DNA of 64,000 nt from positions 250,501-314,500 of the forward strand of contig NZ_JAFZ01000002.1 in NCBI RefSeq assembly GCF_000526395.1, in the 5' to 3' direction. The stretch's first letter is position 1. Every line of letters begins with the position of its first letter. The translations under genes and the position numbers were made by a program. Below, piece after piece: positions 34,250-63,789 of this stretch. Source of the DNA: Aminobacterium mobile DSM 12262 (GTDB taxonomy: Bacteria; Synergistota; Synergistia; Synergistales; Aminobacteriaceae). Under the pieces are notes generated by a model. That model was not told the origin of the DNA. It worked only from the letters and a program-made list of their open reading frames with translations, and did no database searches.

Positions 34250-34296
34250 AAAAACCCCCGCTAGGACATAAGATCTATATCTACGTCCCGCGGGGG
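34250..34296 (-). terminator. Expression-platform terminator of the NiCo riboswitch
   Basis: On the minus strand CCCCCGC pairs with GCGGGGG, with an additional inner stem GGACGTAGAT..TTATGTCC (imperfect), followed by TTTTT. The 5' arm overlaps the conserved 3' segment of the aptamer (CGCGGGAC), so ligand binding and terminator formation should exclude each other. Confidence 0.85.
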
Positions 34297-34362
34297 AATA
34301 AATGTTCCCGCTGCCTCATGAAGGCCCAGCTGCACCTTTTATTATATAAAGGCCGCCTGTTC
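34285..34362 (-). ncRNA. NiCo (czcD) riboswitch aptamer
   Basis: On the minus strand the segment shows the conserved core of the NiCo motif in order: ACAGGC, a variable hairpin, GCAGCTGGGC, a short hairpin CTTCATGAGG, CAGCGGG, a hairpin, then CCCGCGGGAC. These align with my recollection of the Clostridial NiCo aptamer (AGCAGGC, GCAGCCGGGC, GGCAACAG, CUGUGGGAC). The class was described as Ni2+/Co2+ responsive and later as Fe2+ responsive. It directly precedes a cation-efflux ATPase and carries a terminator, so it should turn expression on when metal is high. Confidence 0.88.
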
Positions 34363-34375
34363 ACCATTTTGTGGA

Positions 34376-55545: not shown

Positions 55546-55612
55546 TCAATAGTGCATGCACATGATAAAAAGTAATAAGATTTATTCCATTATTAGGGAG
55601 GTTGGCTATCCT

Positions 55613-56743
55613 ATGAAATTACGTTCTTTAAAAGCACACGGCGTGTGCTTGTCATCCTTTGTTTTTGTAATTGCCCTATTTGTTTTTTTTATGAACGTCC
55701 CTCTTTATGCTGCAGCAGAAGTCCCTATTATTCACTTTGCATGGGATTTTGATCTTCATGCGGGAGCTCTTCTTGTGGCTACAGCTCGAGGAGAAGCTTT
55801 TAAAGATAGTGGCGTTTATTTGAAACCTCTTGTAGAAAAACAGCAATATGAACTTTATAGTAACGGGGAAAAACTAGCACTTCTTGAAATGGTGGTAACA
55901 AAGGGGAGCTCTGAATCAGCTGTTCTACTCGGTCAGAAAAGAATCGATTGCTGCGTCAACTCTATAACAGGAATGATGTTTGCCCGCGATCAGGGAACGC
56001 CCGTACAAATTTTATGTCCAATTCACGTAGATGGGATTGGTCTTGTTTTCCCCCCAAAGACAGATTTTTACGGATGGGATGCTGTAGAAAAATATATTAA
56101 GGAATCGAAAACTCCAGTTCGCTTAGGGTATCATTCTCCTGCCAGTGCCCCACGCGTTGTTCTCGAAACAGCCTTGAAGAGAGCTGGTTTGAAAGTGACA
56201 GAAAATCCGAATGATTTTGATGCTGAAGTTTTACTTGTAGATCTAAAAGGGTCAAGAAATTTATTGCCAGCTTTTACAGGAAGTCAGGTAGATGGATGGG
56301 TCGGTCCGTCTCACTATCCTGAAACAGCAGAGGTTCAAGGAATAGGAAAGATTGTGTTGAACCTAAAAGACTTTCCTCCACAAGGTCAGTGGTACGATTT
56401 CCCCTGTTGTACGCTCGCCGCACGGGAGGACTCTATTAAAGCGCATCCAGAAATCTACCAGGCACTGACACAACTCCTCCACAACAGTGCCAATTGGGCT
56501 ATGGAAAACAGAAGAGAAGCTGCAAAAATAAATGCTGATATTATTGGTATTCCACAAGAAGCTGTAGAAGCAGCTACCATTGTGTTCACAACCACTCCTA
56601 CAGAGAAATGGATGGAAGGGGTTAAATTGTACGTAGACGTATTAAACGATCTCGGCAAGTTTAATGGCGAAATGAAGGGTAAAGATTTTAATGATATACG
56701 GAATTTTTTCTTTGACTTTAGCTTTATTAACAAAGTGAAATAA
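55613..56743 (+). CDS. ABC transporter substrate-binding protein (SsuA/NMT1-like)
   Basis: 376 residues from the ATG at 55613 with AGGGAGGT upstream; the longer in-frame start at 55556 reads through it. A signal peptide (FVFVIALFVFFMNVPLYA) is followed by a type II periplasmic-binding fold resembling SsuA/TauA/NMT1: IIHFAWDFDLHAGALLVATARGEAF and VLLGQKRIDCCVNSITGMM. Ligands of this family include sulfonates, taurine, nitrate and pyrimidine precursors; none can be chosen here. An inverted repeat after the stop may reduce expression of the following genes. Confidence 0.88.
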   Translation: MKLRSLKAHGVCLSSFVFVIALFVFFMNVPLYAAAEVPIIHFAWDFDLHAGALLVATARGEAFKDSGVYLKPLVEKQQYELYSNGEKLALLEMVVTKGSSESAVLLGQKRIDCCVNSITGMMFARDQGTPVQILCPIHVDGIGLVFPPKTDFYGWDAVEKYIKESKTPVRLGYHSPASAPRVVLETALKRAGLKVTENPNDFDAEVLLVDLKGSRNLLPAFTGSQVDGWVGPSHYPETAEVQGIGKIVLNLKDFPPQGQWYDFPCCTLAAREDSIKAHPEIYQALTQLLHNSANWAMENRREAAKINADIIGIPQEAVEAATIVFTTTPTEKWMEGVKLYVDVLNDLGKFNGEMKGKDFNDIRNFFFDFSFINKVK

Positions 56744-56744
56744 A

Positions 56745-56773
56745 AGAATGAGGGGGGGATCCCCCCTCATTCT
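56745..56773 (+). terminator. Intra-operon hairpin after the binding-protein gene
   Basis: AGAATGAGGGGGG and its complement, 13-bp perfect arms around GAT. No long T tract follows (CAAGAAAAAAC), so it probably stabilises the upstream message and attenuates read-through to the permease. Confidence 0.65.
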
Positions 56774-56797
56774 CAAGAAAAAACAGGAGTGATTGAA

Positions 56798-57634
56798 ATG
56801 AAAAAATTCGCCATCAAAACCGGATTTTCTCTTATTTTACCCTTCTCAGTCTTGCTCATGTGGGGACTCCTTGCTAATAATGTTGCTAATCCCATGATTC
56901 TTCCATCATCGACGGATGTTTTAAAACAATTTCTCGCTCCTGAAGAAAGCCTTATAGGTCTTGGCTCTCTAATGACAAATATTGCGGTTAGCCTTATTCG
57001 TGTATTCCTTGGATATATAACTGCAGTATTCATAGCTCTTCCCCTTGGCATTCTTATGGGATACAACAACAAAGTATACTATTTTTTTAATTCATTTATA
57101 GGCCTCTTCCGTCCAGTCCCACCTATAGCTTGGGTCCCTTTAATTTTGGCTTGGCTTGGATTATCCAGCTTCGCTACTCTTTTTGGTGTTCGACAGGGTC
57201 CTTGGTACGTGTATCTCAGTAATTTTAAATTATCCATGGTCTATATTATTTTTCTGGGAGCTTTCTTCCCCATTATTACTAGTGCTATCCATGCTGTAAA
57301 AAACGTTCCCCAAACCTATATTGATTCTGCCCGCGTACTCGGTGCCGGGAAAACAGATATTTTTAAGAAGGTTCTTCTTCCTGGAGCTGCTCCTACTTTA
57401 ATGAACGGCATGAGAACCGGGTTAGGTTCTGCTTGGAGTTGTCTCGTTTCCGCCGAAATGTTACCCGGAAGCTTGTCTGGCGTGGGATATCTTATAACTC
57501 ACGCATATGAGCTTGCTCGTGTCGACATCGTCATTACAGGTATGATTTGCATTGGCGTTATTGGCGCCCTGCTCGATCTTGGATTTAGATATATGGAAGA
57601 AAAGAGATTTGCTTGGCAGCATGTAGCTAAATAG
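56798..57634 (+). CDS. ABC transporter permease (SsuC/TauC-like)
   Basis: 278 residues from the ATG at 56798 (AGGAG 9 bases upstream; a GTG at 56789 overlaps the site). About six membrane segments. The EAA loop reads SARVLGAGKTDIFKKVLLPGAAPTL, the contact site for the ATPase. PFSVLLMWGLLANNVANPMILPS is the typical start of the family. It forms the channel for the solute bound by the protein upstream and is followed 10 bases later by the ATPase gene. Confidence 0.93.
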   Translation: MKKFAIKTGFSLILPFSVLLMWGLLANNVANPMILPSSTDVLKQFLAPEESLIGLGSLMTNIAVSLIRVFLGYITAVFIALPLGILMGYNNKVYYFFNSFIGLFRPVPPIAWVPLILAWLGLSSFATLFGVRQGPWYVYLSNFKLSMVYIIFLGAFFPIITSAIHAVKNVPQTYIDSARVLGAGKTDIFKKVLLPGAAPTLMNGMRTGLGSAWSCLVSAEMLPGSLSGVGYLITHAYELARVDIVITGMICIGVIGALLDLGFRYMEEKRFAWQHVAK

Positions 57635-57643
57635 GAGAGAATT

Positions 57644-58408
57644 ATGATACCAATTATCCACGTAAGAAATCTCAGAAAAACATTTTCTACGAGTCAGAGC
57701 GAAAAAATATGTGCACTTGTAGATATTAACCTCGAAATACAGAAAAATGATTTTGTCTGTATAGTAGGCCCATCTGGATGTGGCAAATCCACACTGTTGC
57801 GCATTATAGCTGGCCTAGAAAAAGCAACTTCCGGAGAAGTCTCTTACCAAGGGGAGTTAATCTCATGTCCAGGAAGAGAGCGTGGGATGGTTTTTCAGGA
57901 ATACTCACTTTTCCCCTGGCGTAATATACTCGATAATATCGGCCTTGGTTTGGAATTTGCAGGAAAATCCACTGAAGAAAAACAGCAGAAAAGTATGGAG
58001 TACCTTAAACTTGTGGGACTTGAGAAATTTGGGAAAGCTTTCCCCCATGAGCTTTCTGGAGGGATGCGCCAAAGAGCCGCTATAGCGCGGGCTCTGGCTA
58101 ATGATCCTGAAGTGCTCCTTATGGATGAACCCTTTGGAGCATTAGATGCTCATACGAGAATTTTGCTTCAACAAGAACTCCTTCGCATATGGGAAGCTCA
58201 TAAAAAAACAATTCTTTTTGTAACTCACAGCGTAGATGAAGCAGTGTTTCTTTCCGATAAAATTGTTCTCATGAGTGCCAGGCCAGGTGAAATAAAAAGA
58301 ATTATAAACATAAATATACCAAGGCCTCGAAAGCGATCTGACCCTACTTTCGGAACTCTCACATATGAAATTCTCAATATGTTGAACAAGGAAATAGTTT
58401 TACAGTAA
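57644..58408 (+). CDS. ABC transporter ATP-binding protein (SsuB/TauB-like)
   Basis: 254 residues. Walker A GPSGCGKSTLLR, Q-loop MVFQEYSLFPWRN, signature LSGGMRQRAAIARAL, Walker B LLMDEPFGALD and switch His in FVTHSVDEAV are all intact. It powers import through the adjacent permease. AGGAGAGAATT precedes the ATG. The last gene of the three-gene importer operon, followed by a shared terminator. Confidence 0.96.
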   Translation: MIPIIHVRNLRKTFSTSQSEKICALVDINLEIQKNDFVCIVGPSGCGKSTLLRIIAGLEKATSGEVSYQGELISCPGRERGMVFQEYSLFPWRNILDNIGLGLEFAGKSTEEKQQKSMEYLKLVGLEKFGKAFPHELSGGMRQRAAIARALANDPEVLLMDEPFGALDAHTRILLQQELLRIWEAHKKTILFVTHSVDEAVFLSDKIVLMSARPGEIKRIININIPRPRKRSDPTFGTLTYEILNMLNKEIVLQ

Positions 58409-59954: not shown

Positions 59955-59983
59955 TTGACTTCTATAATTTTCCATGATATAAG
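59955..59983 (+). promoter_or_regulatory. Promoter of the leader peptide-paaK transcript
   Basis: TTGACT (59955-59960), exactly 17 bases, TATAAG (59978-59983). Transcription would begin near 59990, 33 bases before the leader ATG. Confidence 0.8.
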
Positions 59984-60022
59984 TTTTAACAATATTCAGC
60001 TAGTTTGGAGGATCTAATCAAG

Positions 60023-60112
60023 ATGTTGAAATTGCAAAAGATTGCTTCTTCTAACTGCTTTTTGGGATATTATTACGCCAGCGTGGGACCCTACTGGAGG
60101 GCCGACGCCTAG
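60023..60112 (+). CDS. Tyr-rich leader peptide upstream of the aryl-CoA ligase
   Basis: 29 codons from the ATG at 60023, with TTTGGAGG 12 bases upstream, to TAG at 60110. Three Tyr codons in a row occupy 60068-60076, and Tyr-Trp at 60092-60097 follows. A strong terminator begins 19 bases past the stop codon. Segment 60086-60097 (GGACCCTACTGG) can pair imperfectly with 60129-60136 (CCAGGGCC), which contains the 5' arm of the terminator. This is the layout of ribosome-mediated attenuation sensing charged tRNA-Tyr, perhaps also tRNA-Trp. Confidence 0.72.
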   Translation: MLKLQKIASSNCFLGYYYASVGPYWRADA

Positions 60113-60130
60113 AGCGTGTTGGCTTTTACC

Positions 60131-60172
60131 AGGGCCGGGTTCCCTACTCATAGGGAGCTTGGCCCTTTTTTT
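60131..60172 (+). terminator. Attenuator terminator before paaK
   Basis: AGGGCC / GGCCCT outer stem and TCCCTA / TAGGGA inner stem around CTCA, followed by seven T. It lies between the leader peptide and the aryl-CoA ligase gene, so the ligase is expressed only when termination is avoided. Confidence 0.88.
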
Positions 60173-60207: not shown

Positions 60208-61455
60208 ATGGATGATATTAAGGAACAAGTCTTGCAGCAACTTCAACGCGTAGTACAAAGGGTCTGGGATTCTAATAGCTTATATAGGCGCAAAATGGAA
60301 GAATTAAATATTCTTCCAGAAGACATTAGATCTATGGACGATTTTAAAAAACTCCCCCTTACCACGAAACAGGATTTACGAGACTCCTACCCTCTCGGCA
60401 TGCTAGCACGTCCCAAAGAACAGGTTGTAAGACTTCACGCTTCTTCAGGCACTACAGGAAAACCTACCTTCGTTCCTTACACTCAAAAAGATATAGACAT
60501 GTGGAGAAAATGCATGGCAGAACGTCTAGAAACAGCTGGCGTAAGATCTAGCGATGTATTCCAAATTATTCTCGGTTACGGCCTATTTACCGGGGCTCTC
60601 GGTTTTCATTATGGAGCAGAGCAATTAGGTGCCATGGTTATTCCTTCTGGTGGAGGTTTTACAGATAGACAACTCCTCCTCATGGAAGATGCTGGAACCA
60701 CTGTCTTTACTAGCACCCCGTCCTATGCTCTCTACTTAGCAGAGCGTATAGAGAAAGAAAATCTTCGAGCTCGTCTTCGCCTGAGATTAGCCATTCTCGG
60801 GGGAGAAGCTTGGACTGAAGATTTAGGAGAGCAGATAGAGAATATGTTAGGGGTTACTGTTATAAACTCTTATGGACTATCTGAAATTATGGGGCCTGGA
60901 GTAGCGATGGAATGTCCCGAAAAACAAGGCATGCACTTTAATGAACAGCATTTTTATATAGAAACTATAGACCCCAAGAGAGGCACCCCTCTTCCTGATG
61001 GAGATTTAGGCGAGATGGTTGTTACGACCTTGACTAAAGAAGCTTTCCCCCTTGTTCGGTATCGCACAAGAGACCTTTCGTCGCTGCGCACGGAGCCTTG
61101 TCCATGCGGACAAAAAGGGAAACGCATCAATCGTGTCGCTGGAAGAAATGACGACATGCTCATTATTCGCGGCGTAAATATTTTTCCTTCTCAAGTAGAA
61201 GTGGCTCTCGCCCATGTAGGGGGGATTACTCTTCACTACCGCATTGAAGTCTGTGACCGTAATGGTATGCCCGATCTAACAGTTGTTTGTGAATCCCAAA
61301 ACATTCTTGCTGAAACAGAAAAGAAACTCTTAATGGAACAGGCTATTTGCGTTCTGAAAGAGAACCTAGGCATTCGAGTAAACGTACGAATAGAAGATCC
61401 CGAAGCCCTTGGCAGACATGAAGGGAAAGCTCTTCGAGTGCTTCACGTGGCTTAA
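60208..61455 (+). CDS. paaK: Phenylacetate-CoA ligase family protein (PaaK-like)
   Basis: 415 residues. The AMP-forming acyl-CoA synthetase motifs are HASSGTTGKPTFVPYT (P-loop), NSYGLSEIMGPGVAMEC (A5) and RTRDLS..GRNDDMLIIRGVNIFPSQVE (A7-A8). The length and opening YRRKMEELNILPEDI fit the PaaK/IorAB-associated aryl-CoA ligases. It would make or use phenylacetyl-, 4-hydroxyphenylacetyl- or indoleacetyl-CoA. In anaerobes the enzyme can work in aromatic amino acid breakdown, yielding ATP, or in the reverse salvage direction with IorAB. The Tyr/Trp attenuator upstream favours the salvage role. A 43-residue gene follows. Confidence 0.9.
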   Translation: MDDIKEQVLQQLQRVVQRVWDSNSLYRRKMEELNILPEDIRSMDDFKKLPLTTKQDLRDSYPLGMLARPKEQVVRLHASSGTTGKPTFVPYTQKDIDMWRKCMAERLETAGVRSSDVFQIILGYGLFTGALGFHYGAEQLGAMVIPSGGGFTDRQLLLMEDAGTTVFTSTPSYALYLAERIEKENLRARLRLRLAILGGEAWTEDLGEQIENMLGVTVINSYGLSEIMGPGVAMECPEKQGMHFNEQHFYIETIDPKRGTPLPDGDLGEMVVTTLTKEAFPLVRYRTRDLSSLRTEPCPCGQKGKRINRVAGRNDDMLIIRGVNIFPSQVEVALAHVGGITLHYRIEVCDRNGMPDLTVVCESQNILAETEKKLLMEQAICVLKENLGIRVNVRIEDPEALGRHEGKALRVLHVA

Positions 61456-61490
61456 TGTTAGAAACAGAAAATACAAAGGAGATAACTATC

Positions 61491-61622
61491 ATGGCGAAAT
61501 CAAATGAAAAAAAAGCTTCTCTGACTAGAATAGACAAAAGATACGATCCCAAGGAAAATGAATTTGATTTTGAGGGACTTTCCTTCGCCTATCGAGAGGT
61601 TTTAAAGAATGAGCAACGATAG
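61491..61622 (+). CDS. Small 43-residue protein downstream of paaK
   Basis: ATG at 61491 after ACAAAGGAG at good spacing, 35 bases past paaK, ending at TAG 61620-61622. The product is strongly charged (MAKSNEKKASLTRIDKRY opening, then FDFEGLSFAYREVLKNEQR) with no membrane segment. A terminator follows directly, so it belongs to the paaK transcript. Not recognised; it could be a small partner or regulator of the ligase. Confidence 0.65.
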   Translation: MAKSNEKKASLTRIDKRYDPKENEFDFEGLSFAYREVLKNEQR

Positions 61623-62381: not shown

Positions 62382-62450
62382 ATGAAAAAAACAATGAAAC
62401 ATCTCAGAGATTTTAATTCTATCAATAAGTTCTGGTGGTGGCGCTGTTAG
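62382..62450 (+). CDS. trpL: trp leader peptide with Trp-Trp-Trp
   Basis: 22 codons, MKKTMKHLRDFNSINKFW then WWRC, ending at TAG 62448-62450. Three successive Trp codons (62433-62441) lie just before the stop. A hairpin GGCGCT-GTT-AGCGCC (62440-62454) overlaps the end of the ORF. The antiterminator segment CCGCAG (62456-62461) lies where a ribosome at the stop codon would cover it but one stalled on the Trp codons would not. This is the classical layout of tryptophan attenuation. A second ATG at 62394 is an alternative start. Confidence 0.88.
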   Translation: MKKTMKHLRDFNSINKFWWWRC

Positions 62451-62455
62451 CGCCG

Positions 62456-62517
62456 CCGCAGGTATGGCCTGATTTTTCAGGGGCTGCGGGGCAAAAAACC
62501 GCAGCCCCTTTTCTTTT
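62456..62517 (+). terminator. trp attenuator: antiterminator and first terminator
   Basis: Segment 2 CCGCAG (62456-62461) is complementary to CTGCGG (62484-62489). The terminator pairs GGGGCTGCGG (62480-62489) with CCGCAGCCCC (62499-62508), followed by TTTTCTTTT. The two pairings exclude each other. Confidence 0.9.
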
Positions 62518-62588: not shown

Positions 62589-62613
62589 ATATAAAACAAG
62601 GGAGGTATTGTTC

Positions 62614-63789
62614 ATGAAACAGAATAAGAAAGGATTCTTTGGAGAATATGGTGGTAGTTTTGTGTCGGAAGCATTGCAATCTCGCCTCAATGAGCTGGAA
62701 AAAGCTTATGAGGACGCCCGTCATGATCAATCTTTTGCCGAAGAATTTACAACGACTTTAAAAGAATATGTGGGGAGGCCATCGGCTCTTACAGAGTGTA
62801 AAAATATATCAAAATACTTTGGGGGAGGACGACTATTTCTGAAACGAGAAGATCTCAATCACACTGGCGCCCACAAAATAAATAATGCGTTAGGACAAGC
62901 TCTTCTAGCTAAACGTATGGGGAAAAAGGAACTCATAGCAGAGACAGGTGCTGGAATGCACGGCACAGCCAGTGCCACCGTAGCGGCTCTTATGGGAATG
63001 AAGTGCACTGTATATATGGGAGCTCTTGATGTAGCTCGCCAAGCCCCGAATGTAGCCCGTATGAAAGTATTAGGAACAGAAATTATAGCTGTAGAGGAAG
63101 GACAGAAAGCTCTTAAAGAAGCCGTTGATGCAGCTCTGAAAGCTTTTGCAGAACGACCTGAAACTTTCTATTTGTTAGGTTCAGCTGTAGGACCTCATCC
63201 TTATCCTACTATGGTTCATGATTTTCAAAGTATTATCGGTAAAGAGGCAAGACAACAATTTCTGGACCGCGAAGGTACATTACCAAACTATGCTTTGGCC
63301 TGTGTAGGTGGTGGAAGTAACGCTATTGGTCTTTTTGCAGGTTTTCTCAACGACTCGGACGTGAAGTTGTTCGGAGTGGAACCAGCCGGGAAGGGGTTGG
63401 CCTCTGGGGAGCATGCAGCTACATTGTCTGTAGGGAAACCATCTATTATTCATGGGTTCAAGAGTTACGTACTTACAAAAGAAAACGGGGAACCAGCCAA
63501 TGTATACTCTATATCAGCAGGGCTTGATTATCCTGGCGTTGGCCCAGAACACGCCTATTTGAAAGACAGCGGTCGGGTAAACTATGTGTCTGTCACAGAT
63601 CAAGAAGCCATTGATGCCTTTAAACTGCTCTGCCAAAAAGAAGGGATCATCCCCGCTCTTGAAAGCTCTCATGCGTTAGCCTACGCTTTTAAACTACTTC
63701 CCAAACTTACCCGGAGGGAAAGTATCCTCGTCAATCTTTCTGGGCGAGGAGACAAAGATATGGATGCGATCCTTCCTCTTCTTAAATGA
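62614..63789 (+). CDS. trpB: Tryptophan synthase beta chain
   Basis: 391 residues from the ATG at 62614, after GGGAGG at 8 bases; an in-frame TTG at 62608 is rejected. KKGFFGEYGGSFVSEAL is the TrpB1 opening, HTGAHKINNALGQALLAKRMGK carries the PLP lysine, ETGAGMHGTASATVAALMGM follows, and CVGGGSNAIGLF binds the PLP phosphate. It condenses indole and serine to tryptophan. No trpA or other trp gene is adjacent, so it may use free indole or a distant alpha subunit. Attenuation by two terminators controls it. Confidence 0.97.
   Translation: MKQNKKGFFGEYGGSFVSEALQSRLNELEKAYEDARHDQSFAEEFTTTLKEYVGRPSALTECKNISKYFGGGRLFLKREDLNHTGAHKINNALGQALLAKRMGKKELIAETGAGMHGTASATVAALMGMKCTVYMGALDVARQAPNVARMKVLGTEIIAVEEGQKALKEAVDAALKAFAERPETFYLLGSAVGPHPYPTMVHDFQSIIGKEARQQFLDREGTLPNYALACVGGGSNAIGLFAGFLNDSDVKLFGVEPAGKGLASGEHAATLSVGKPSIIHGFKSYVLTKENGEPANVYSISAGLDYPGVGPEHAYLKDSGRVNYVSVTDQEAIDAFKLLCQKEGIIPALESSHALAYAFKLLPKLTRRESILVNLSGRGDKDMDAILPLLK

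Follow-up and report, generated by a model that had tools for sequence, protein, structure and literature searches.

Predicted tyrosine-dependent attenuation of an aryl-acetate-CoA ligase in Synergistota, and leader codons as a probable label of ligase specificity

Enteric attenuators of the trp, pheA, his and ilv type place a short leader ORF with cognate codons ahead of a strand shared by an antiterminator and a terminator, followed by a T tract and the cognate biosynthetic gene. The locus described here, from Aminobacterium mobile DSM 12262 (Synergistota), resembles them in all these parts, but it precedes a gene for an aryl-acetate-CoA ligase and not one of the chorismate pathway, the antiterminator holds the leader stop codon in its apical loop, and the architecture appears to recur with the codon run changed among Tyr, Phe and branched-chain amino acids. 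The second point of comparison is the salvage of aryl acids in rumen anaerobes and methanogens, in which an aryl acetate is converted to its CoA ester and then through IorAB to the aromatic amino acid; that rumen anaerobes make phenylalanine from phenylacetate is a classic finding, reportedly of Allison in 1965 (listed in PMC7356843). In those systems we know of no attenuator that answers to a particular amino acid and acts on the ligase, whereas here the ligase step is predicted to be the regulated one. A survey of five genomes, including that of Thermovirga lienii, described, at shikimate genes, two uORF candidates that contain Phe and Tyr codons (PMC6429828), a finding akin to ours but distinct from it. 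They share with our leader the aromatic-codon upstream ORF and the structured RNA, and one of the surveyed genomes is that of a synergistete; the main text contains no mention of phenylacetate-CoA ligases or of a paralogue code. Finally, PaaK1 and PaaK2 of Burkholderia cenocepacia (2y27, 2y4o; PMC4498308) belong to the same protein family as the ligase and match it over the full length, but are catabolic enzymes.

The window, i.e. the whole stretch of 64,000 nucleotides analysed (contig NZ_JAFZ01000002.1, positions 250,501 to 314,500), carries the leader and its ligase gene as follows:

59955-59983, + strand: promoter, TTGACT (-35, 59955-59960), 17-nt spacer and TATAAG (-10, 59978-59983), with TG just 5' of the -10
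60007-60011, + strand: Shine-Dalgarno sequence GGAGG of the leader ORF, located by script
60023-60112, + strand: leader peptide ORF of 29 codons, MLKLQKIASSNCFLGYYYASVGPYWRADA and stop, read directly and kept in relatives
60068-60076, + strand: putative regulatory Tyr codons TAT TAT TAC in the leader ORF, with Tyr at the same place in orthologous leaders
60085-60143, + strand: antiterminator, in which 60085-60091 pairs with 60137-60143; its 5' arm starts at about 60081-60085 and pairs with GGGTTCCC at 60137-60144
60131-60172, + strand: intrinsic terminator, 16-bp stem (60131-60166), 4-nt loop and T tract (60166-60172)
60208-61455, + strand: PaaK-like AMP-forming aryl-acetate-CoA ligase, 415 aa, predicted from profile matches and a residue fingerprint to be a 4-hydroxyphenylacetate-CoA ligase
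61455-61622, + strand: conserved small ORF directly 3' of the ligase gene, with counterparts in L003, L004, L006, L008, L059 and L060

The promoter, leader ORF, Tyr run and hairpins are all present at these positions, which bears out the original prediction of a good promoter, a 29-codon ORF with YYY, and a competing pairing with a strong terminator ahead of a PaaK-like gene. None of 200 dinucleotide shuffles folds as well as the 206-nt leader (z -4.1), and the terminator fold and the long antiterminator hairpin are mutually exclusive structures. In a fold of the transcript cut short of the 3' terminator arm, the antiterminator encloses a hairpin whose apical loop contains the leader stop codon. 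The predicted element therefore combines a leader ORF with its ribosome binding site, a conserved run of cognate codons, and exclusive antiterminator and terminator structures, as expected of an attenuator.

To follow the leader beyond this genome, relatives were found by a search with the window ligase. The leader ORF, aromatic run, antiterminator, stop-codon hairpin, terminator and promoter also occur 5' of orthologues from the same genus, from another genus of the same family and from several other families, with leader peptides such as MFLDVIASSNCFFEYYYASEGPHWRASA, MSLVIISSSNCFFEYYYAGEGPLWRASA, ...VFSYYYASVGPGPGADA, ...FYFYYFTGVGPPQRFDA, ...RYYFTGVGPPRWADA and MTRSLFTNGYYYVYGSAGSPGDRSGA. 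The promoter form and spacing recur as well (TTGAC-17/18-TATA 5' of the leader in 19 of the 21 relatives scanned, 15 of them with TATAAA or TATAAG). Judged from these comparisons, recurrence of the leader across relatives is more than chance. Tyr codons were kept in every orthologous leader read, whereas the Trp codon that follows the run is missing in L005, L006, L009, L011, L060 and others. Since it is not conserved, the leader, originally proposed to sense Tyr and Trp, is better regarded as Tyr-sensing, possibly with Phe; Trp sensing by the paaK leader through its YW codon was rejected.

Antiterminator pairing was assessed in an alignment of ten leaders, in which 91% of the cells in its helices are paired and the covariation score exceeds that of each of 500 shuffles and of every slid control. 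The antiterminator was scored because RNAalifold on the terminator alone gave almost nothing, its arms being shifted in the alignment. Of 48 leaders measured, related ones not being independent, 44 have their best antiterminator duplex starting 2-8 nt past the matched aromatic run, a spacing that would suit a ribosome which stalls on the run and leaves the arm free. Taken leader by leader, duplex energies are strong in some cases, often not beyond composition-shuffled controls, and weak for several Phe leaders and two of the three Trp leaders; the argument from arm release thus draws on position more than on strength. No Rfam family matches the leader, and no T-box, the RNA that the original prediction had named as the competing possibility, was found in it, either at the gathering score or with E relaxed to 5. 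The leader gave no match in a plasmid collection, a scan of genome contigs returned only one distant locus, and a leader of this kind is absent from the DVU1553-like homologues (L022-L026).

We consider it highly probable that this leader mediates ribosome-dependent attenuation in response to Tyr starvation, and that the gene it controls encodes a 4-hydroxyphenylacetate-CoA ligase feeding IorAB-dependent reductive carboxylation to Tyr, i.e. a salvage route. The attenuator would be read out by Tyr-tRNA, and perhaps by Phe-tRNA too. With charged Tyr-tRNA plentiful, the ribosome would reach the leader stop codon and disrupt the antiterminator, because the stop codon lies in its apical loop, so that formation of the terminator would keep the ligase off. 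Under Tyr shortage, the ribosome would presumably stall on the three Tyr codons and the antiterminator arm, which starts about 5-9 nt past the last of them, would stay free to pair with the terminator 5' arm, allowing read-through into the ligase gene under starvation. The ligase may then form 4-hydroxyphenylacetyl-CoA as its likely product, IorAB would carboxylate it reductively to 4-hydroxyphenylpyruvate if flux runs in that direction, and transamination would yield Tyr.

Genomes with two such ligases carry, ahead of the second, a leader with a Phe run or a Phe-rich stretch (SFFFFFTGAGP, RFFFFFSAGP, RFFFTGVGP, VFSFTNAGP), and a third ligase, present in four genomes of one genus, is preceded by a Trp leader, GRWWW[FY]. 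Tandem copies in family f4 have leaders with VT[RQ]FSF (Phe) and with VAVYSY or VYSYYY (Tyr). On a tree of 77 ligases, the Tyr-leader ligases fall into two separate clades, one with 19 members (SH-aLRT 99) and the other, inside the Phe-leader part, with 5 (SH-aLRT 100), and the Trp-leader ligases form one clade (SH-aLRT 100). The Y/F/W leader states need 3 changes on this tree, and all five label groups together need 8 changes compared to a shuffled mean of 38.9 (0 of 200 shuffles as low). By this reconstruction the leader residue follows the ligase clade for three amino acids, and the second Tyr-leader clade is a natural replicate, independent of the first.

The two Tyr/Phe contrasts were then compared column by column. 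Exactly 2 of 415 columns separate Tyr-leader from Phe-leader ligases completely in each contrast and have one identical Tyr-side residue, T168 and S221, which occur together in 24 of 24 Tyr-leader ligases and in 0 of 22 Phe-leader ligases (A/C at 168, I/V at 221); the label-swapped control in the second contrast gave 0 columns. The Tyr-leader fingerprint also includes L/T122, A/S130 and F133, the Phe-leader fingerprint Y/F122, G130 and mostly L/I/V/M133, and the Trp-leader fingerprint P122 and W127. Among the specificity positions of adenylation domains, S221 would fall at 322, immediately ahead of the YGxxE motif, and T168 at 278, which precedes the PSY/PPT stretch; S221 would then presumably equal Ile236 of PaaK1. 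The aryl pockets of PaaK are mainly non-polar, and substrate specificity is correlated with their extent and polarity (PMC9516798). Ser239 of 2-hydroxyisobutyryl-CoA ligase was considered as support for position 221 and set aside, as the alignment apparently puts it at G198.

The window ligase has L122, A130, T168 and S221, the Tyr type. At 122, 130 and 221 its L, A and S stand against Y/F, G and I in the catabolic PaaK1/PaaK2, whose letters the Phe-leader ligases share and the Tyr-leader ligases do not. It scores 462.1 bits against the PaaK equivalog TIGR02155, below the curated cut-off of 646.3, and is therefore treated as a relative and not filed as PaaK. We think it probable that leader codons in Synergistota are a readable label of ligase specificity, with Tyr, Phe and Trp attenuators on 4-hydroxyphenylacetate, phenylacetate and indoleacetate ligases that carry matching fingerprints (the Tyr one reached twice, independently), in one architecture re-coded across salvage, uptake and branched-chain genes.

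A refinement of this explanation, and not its opposite, is that the window's genus has a general aryl-acetate ligase for salvage of both Phe and Tyr, with a leader that senses both. The window genome and its two congeners (G000-G002) have only one such ligase each, and their leaders combine CF or CFF with YYY; several leaders carry Phe beside Tyr (FYFYYF, in G043; FFEYYY), so that Tyr/Phe discrimination may be loose. We nevertheless regard a general ligase as possible but rather unlikely, as the conserved codons closest to the antiterminator are Tyr and the Tyr-type fingerprint is unlike that of known phenylacetate ligases.

Two distant PaaK-like genes deserve separate mention. One (L020 447-542, G008:C113) is preceded by a Met leader, MMMCMM, with a terminator, which could mean salvage of 3-methylthiopropionate to Met; the three closest relatives of L020 have no leader, and the case is for that reason kept as an anecdote. 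The other, in G019, has a permease-looking sequence just 5' of it.

If the ligase serves salvage, the surrounding metabolism matters. The window genome is 99.7% complete, and chorismate synthase, prephenate dehydratase and prephenate dehydrogenase (PF01264, PF00800, PF02153) gave no hit over cut-off in it, nor in its two congeners, G007 and G057, while each of the three was detected in 14 of 14 control genomes. IorA is encoded with an adjoining IorB-like ORF (G000:C1, about 619144-621542). The expectation that the genome would lack shikimate genes and have iorAB thus held for chorismate synthase and the terminal Tyr/Phe genes, and the predicted gene complement, with ligase and IorAB together and no de novo route found, is that expected for salvage. 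The original reading, salvage with IorAB rather than breakdown, also gains support from the paralogues with Phe and Trp leaders and from leaderless PaaK-like homologues that lie directly behind iorB in family f4 and genus g15. IorAB can run either way, which counts against the salvage reading. Some Tyr-leader genomes (G043, G047, G052) retain the shikimate pathway, and salvage there would be a supplement.

Degradation of phenylacetate is the best-known role of the PaaK family (PMC4498308, PMC8388817), and amino acids are fermented by members of the Synergistota, so the attenuator could be real and the ligase nonetheless catabolic or fermentative, using aromatic acids for energy or carbon with Tyr control incidental. 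This appears improbable: attenuation would turn the gene on at low Tyr, the opposite of what breakdown needs, and the leader residue tracks the ligase clade for three amino acids. As candidate sinks, aerobic phenylacetate breakdown (PaaA) and a benzoyl-CoA reductase subunit were sought in 7 genomes, none was above cut-off, and both routes were rejected.

In further support of the main reading, trpB, 2 kb downstream, has a putative attenuator of its own:

62382-62450, + strand: second leader ORF, MKKTMKHLRDFNSINKFWWWRC and stop, with Trp-Trp-Trp, the putative Trp attenuator of trpB, kept in both congeners (L003, L004)
62479-62513, + strand: terminator hairpin of the trpB leader with the first residues of its T tract, from the fold
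62608-63789, + strand: trpB, tryptophan synthase beta, likely start ATG 62614 (TIGR00263, 573 bits, cut-off 392)

As no chorismate synthase was found, trpB is probably there for indole salvage. The small ORF at 61455-61622 is of a type of about 45-55 aa (...DFEGL..AY...) that follows the ligase gene in many relatives, and it has no family match. Upstream of the ligase, at 55556-58408, the window encodes an ABC transporter (NMT1/SsuA-like binding protein, permease and ATPase), and a NiCo riboswitch (34281-34374, - strand, 48 bits) lies upstream of a P-type cation ATPase gene.

A covariance model built from the leader RNA (R1) recovers paaK leaders and others. Two more were found in the window genome, L168 (G000:C1:955609-955718) and L169 (G000:C1:291690-291794), with Phe/Tyr/Trp-rich leaders (FFYFYF; FFFFAFWY) that precede membrane proteins of 400-410 aa; these have no confident Pfam family and are perhaps aromatic amino acid transporters. 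In other genomes, leaders rich in Ile, Leu and Val (L175, L176, L179, L181, L182, L183) precede threonine-dehydratase-like, leuC-like and ilvC-like genes, named from translated sequence only. One predicted attenuator architecture is thus re-coded for different amino acids, and its other recognisable targets are biosynthetic, which supports an anabolic role of the ligase. That the conserved element is instead a riboswitch or T-box RNA with an accidental peptide, as its strong structure and conserved stop-codon hairpin might suggest, is very unlikely, since a ligand-binding RNA would not predict a run that changes with the paralogue (Y, F or W; I/L/V before ilvC-like) on a constant RNA architecture, and Rfam, T-box included, gave no match.

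Ribosome-mediated attenuation itself is of a known kind. In the literature searched we found no description of attenuation of a phenylacetate-CoA ligase, and a ligase family whose leader codons apparently name the product amino acid, with convergent ligase residues, appears new to us. The sequence of an aryl-CoA ligase rarely tells whether the enzyme builds or breaks, or which acid it uses. The leader suggests both, as its Tyr, Phe or Trp codons would name the product and control by starvation would indicate the anabolic direction. It points to a testable way in which anaerobes that lack the shikimate pathway could obtain aromatic amino acids, and such a leader code would explain why the ligase paralogues exist. 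Attenuator codons may thus offer a general means of assigning substrates to paralogous enzymes.
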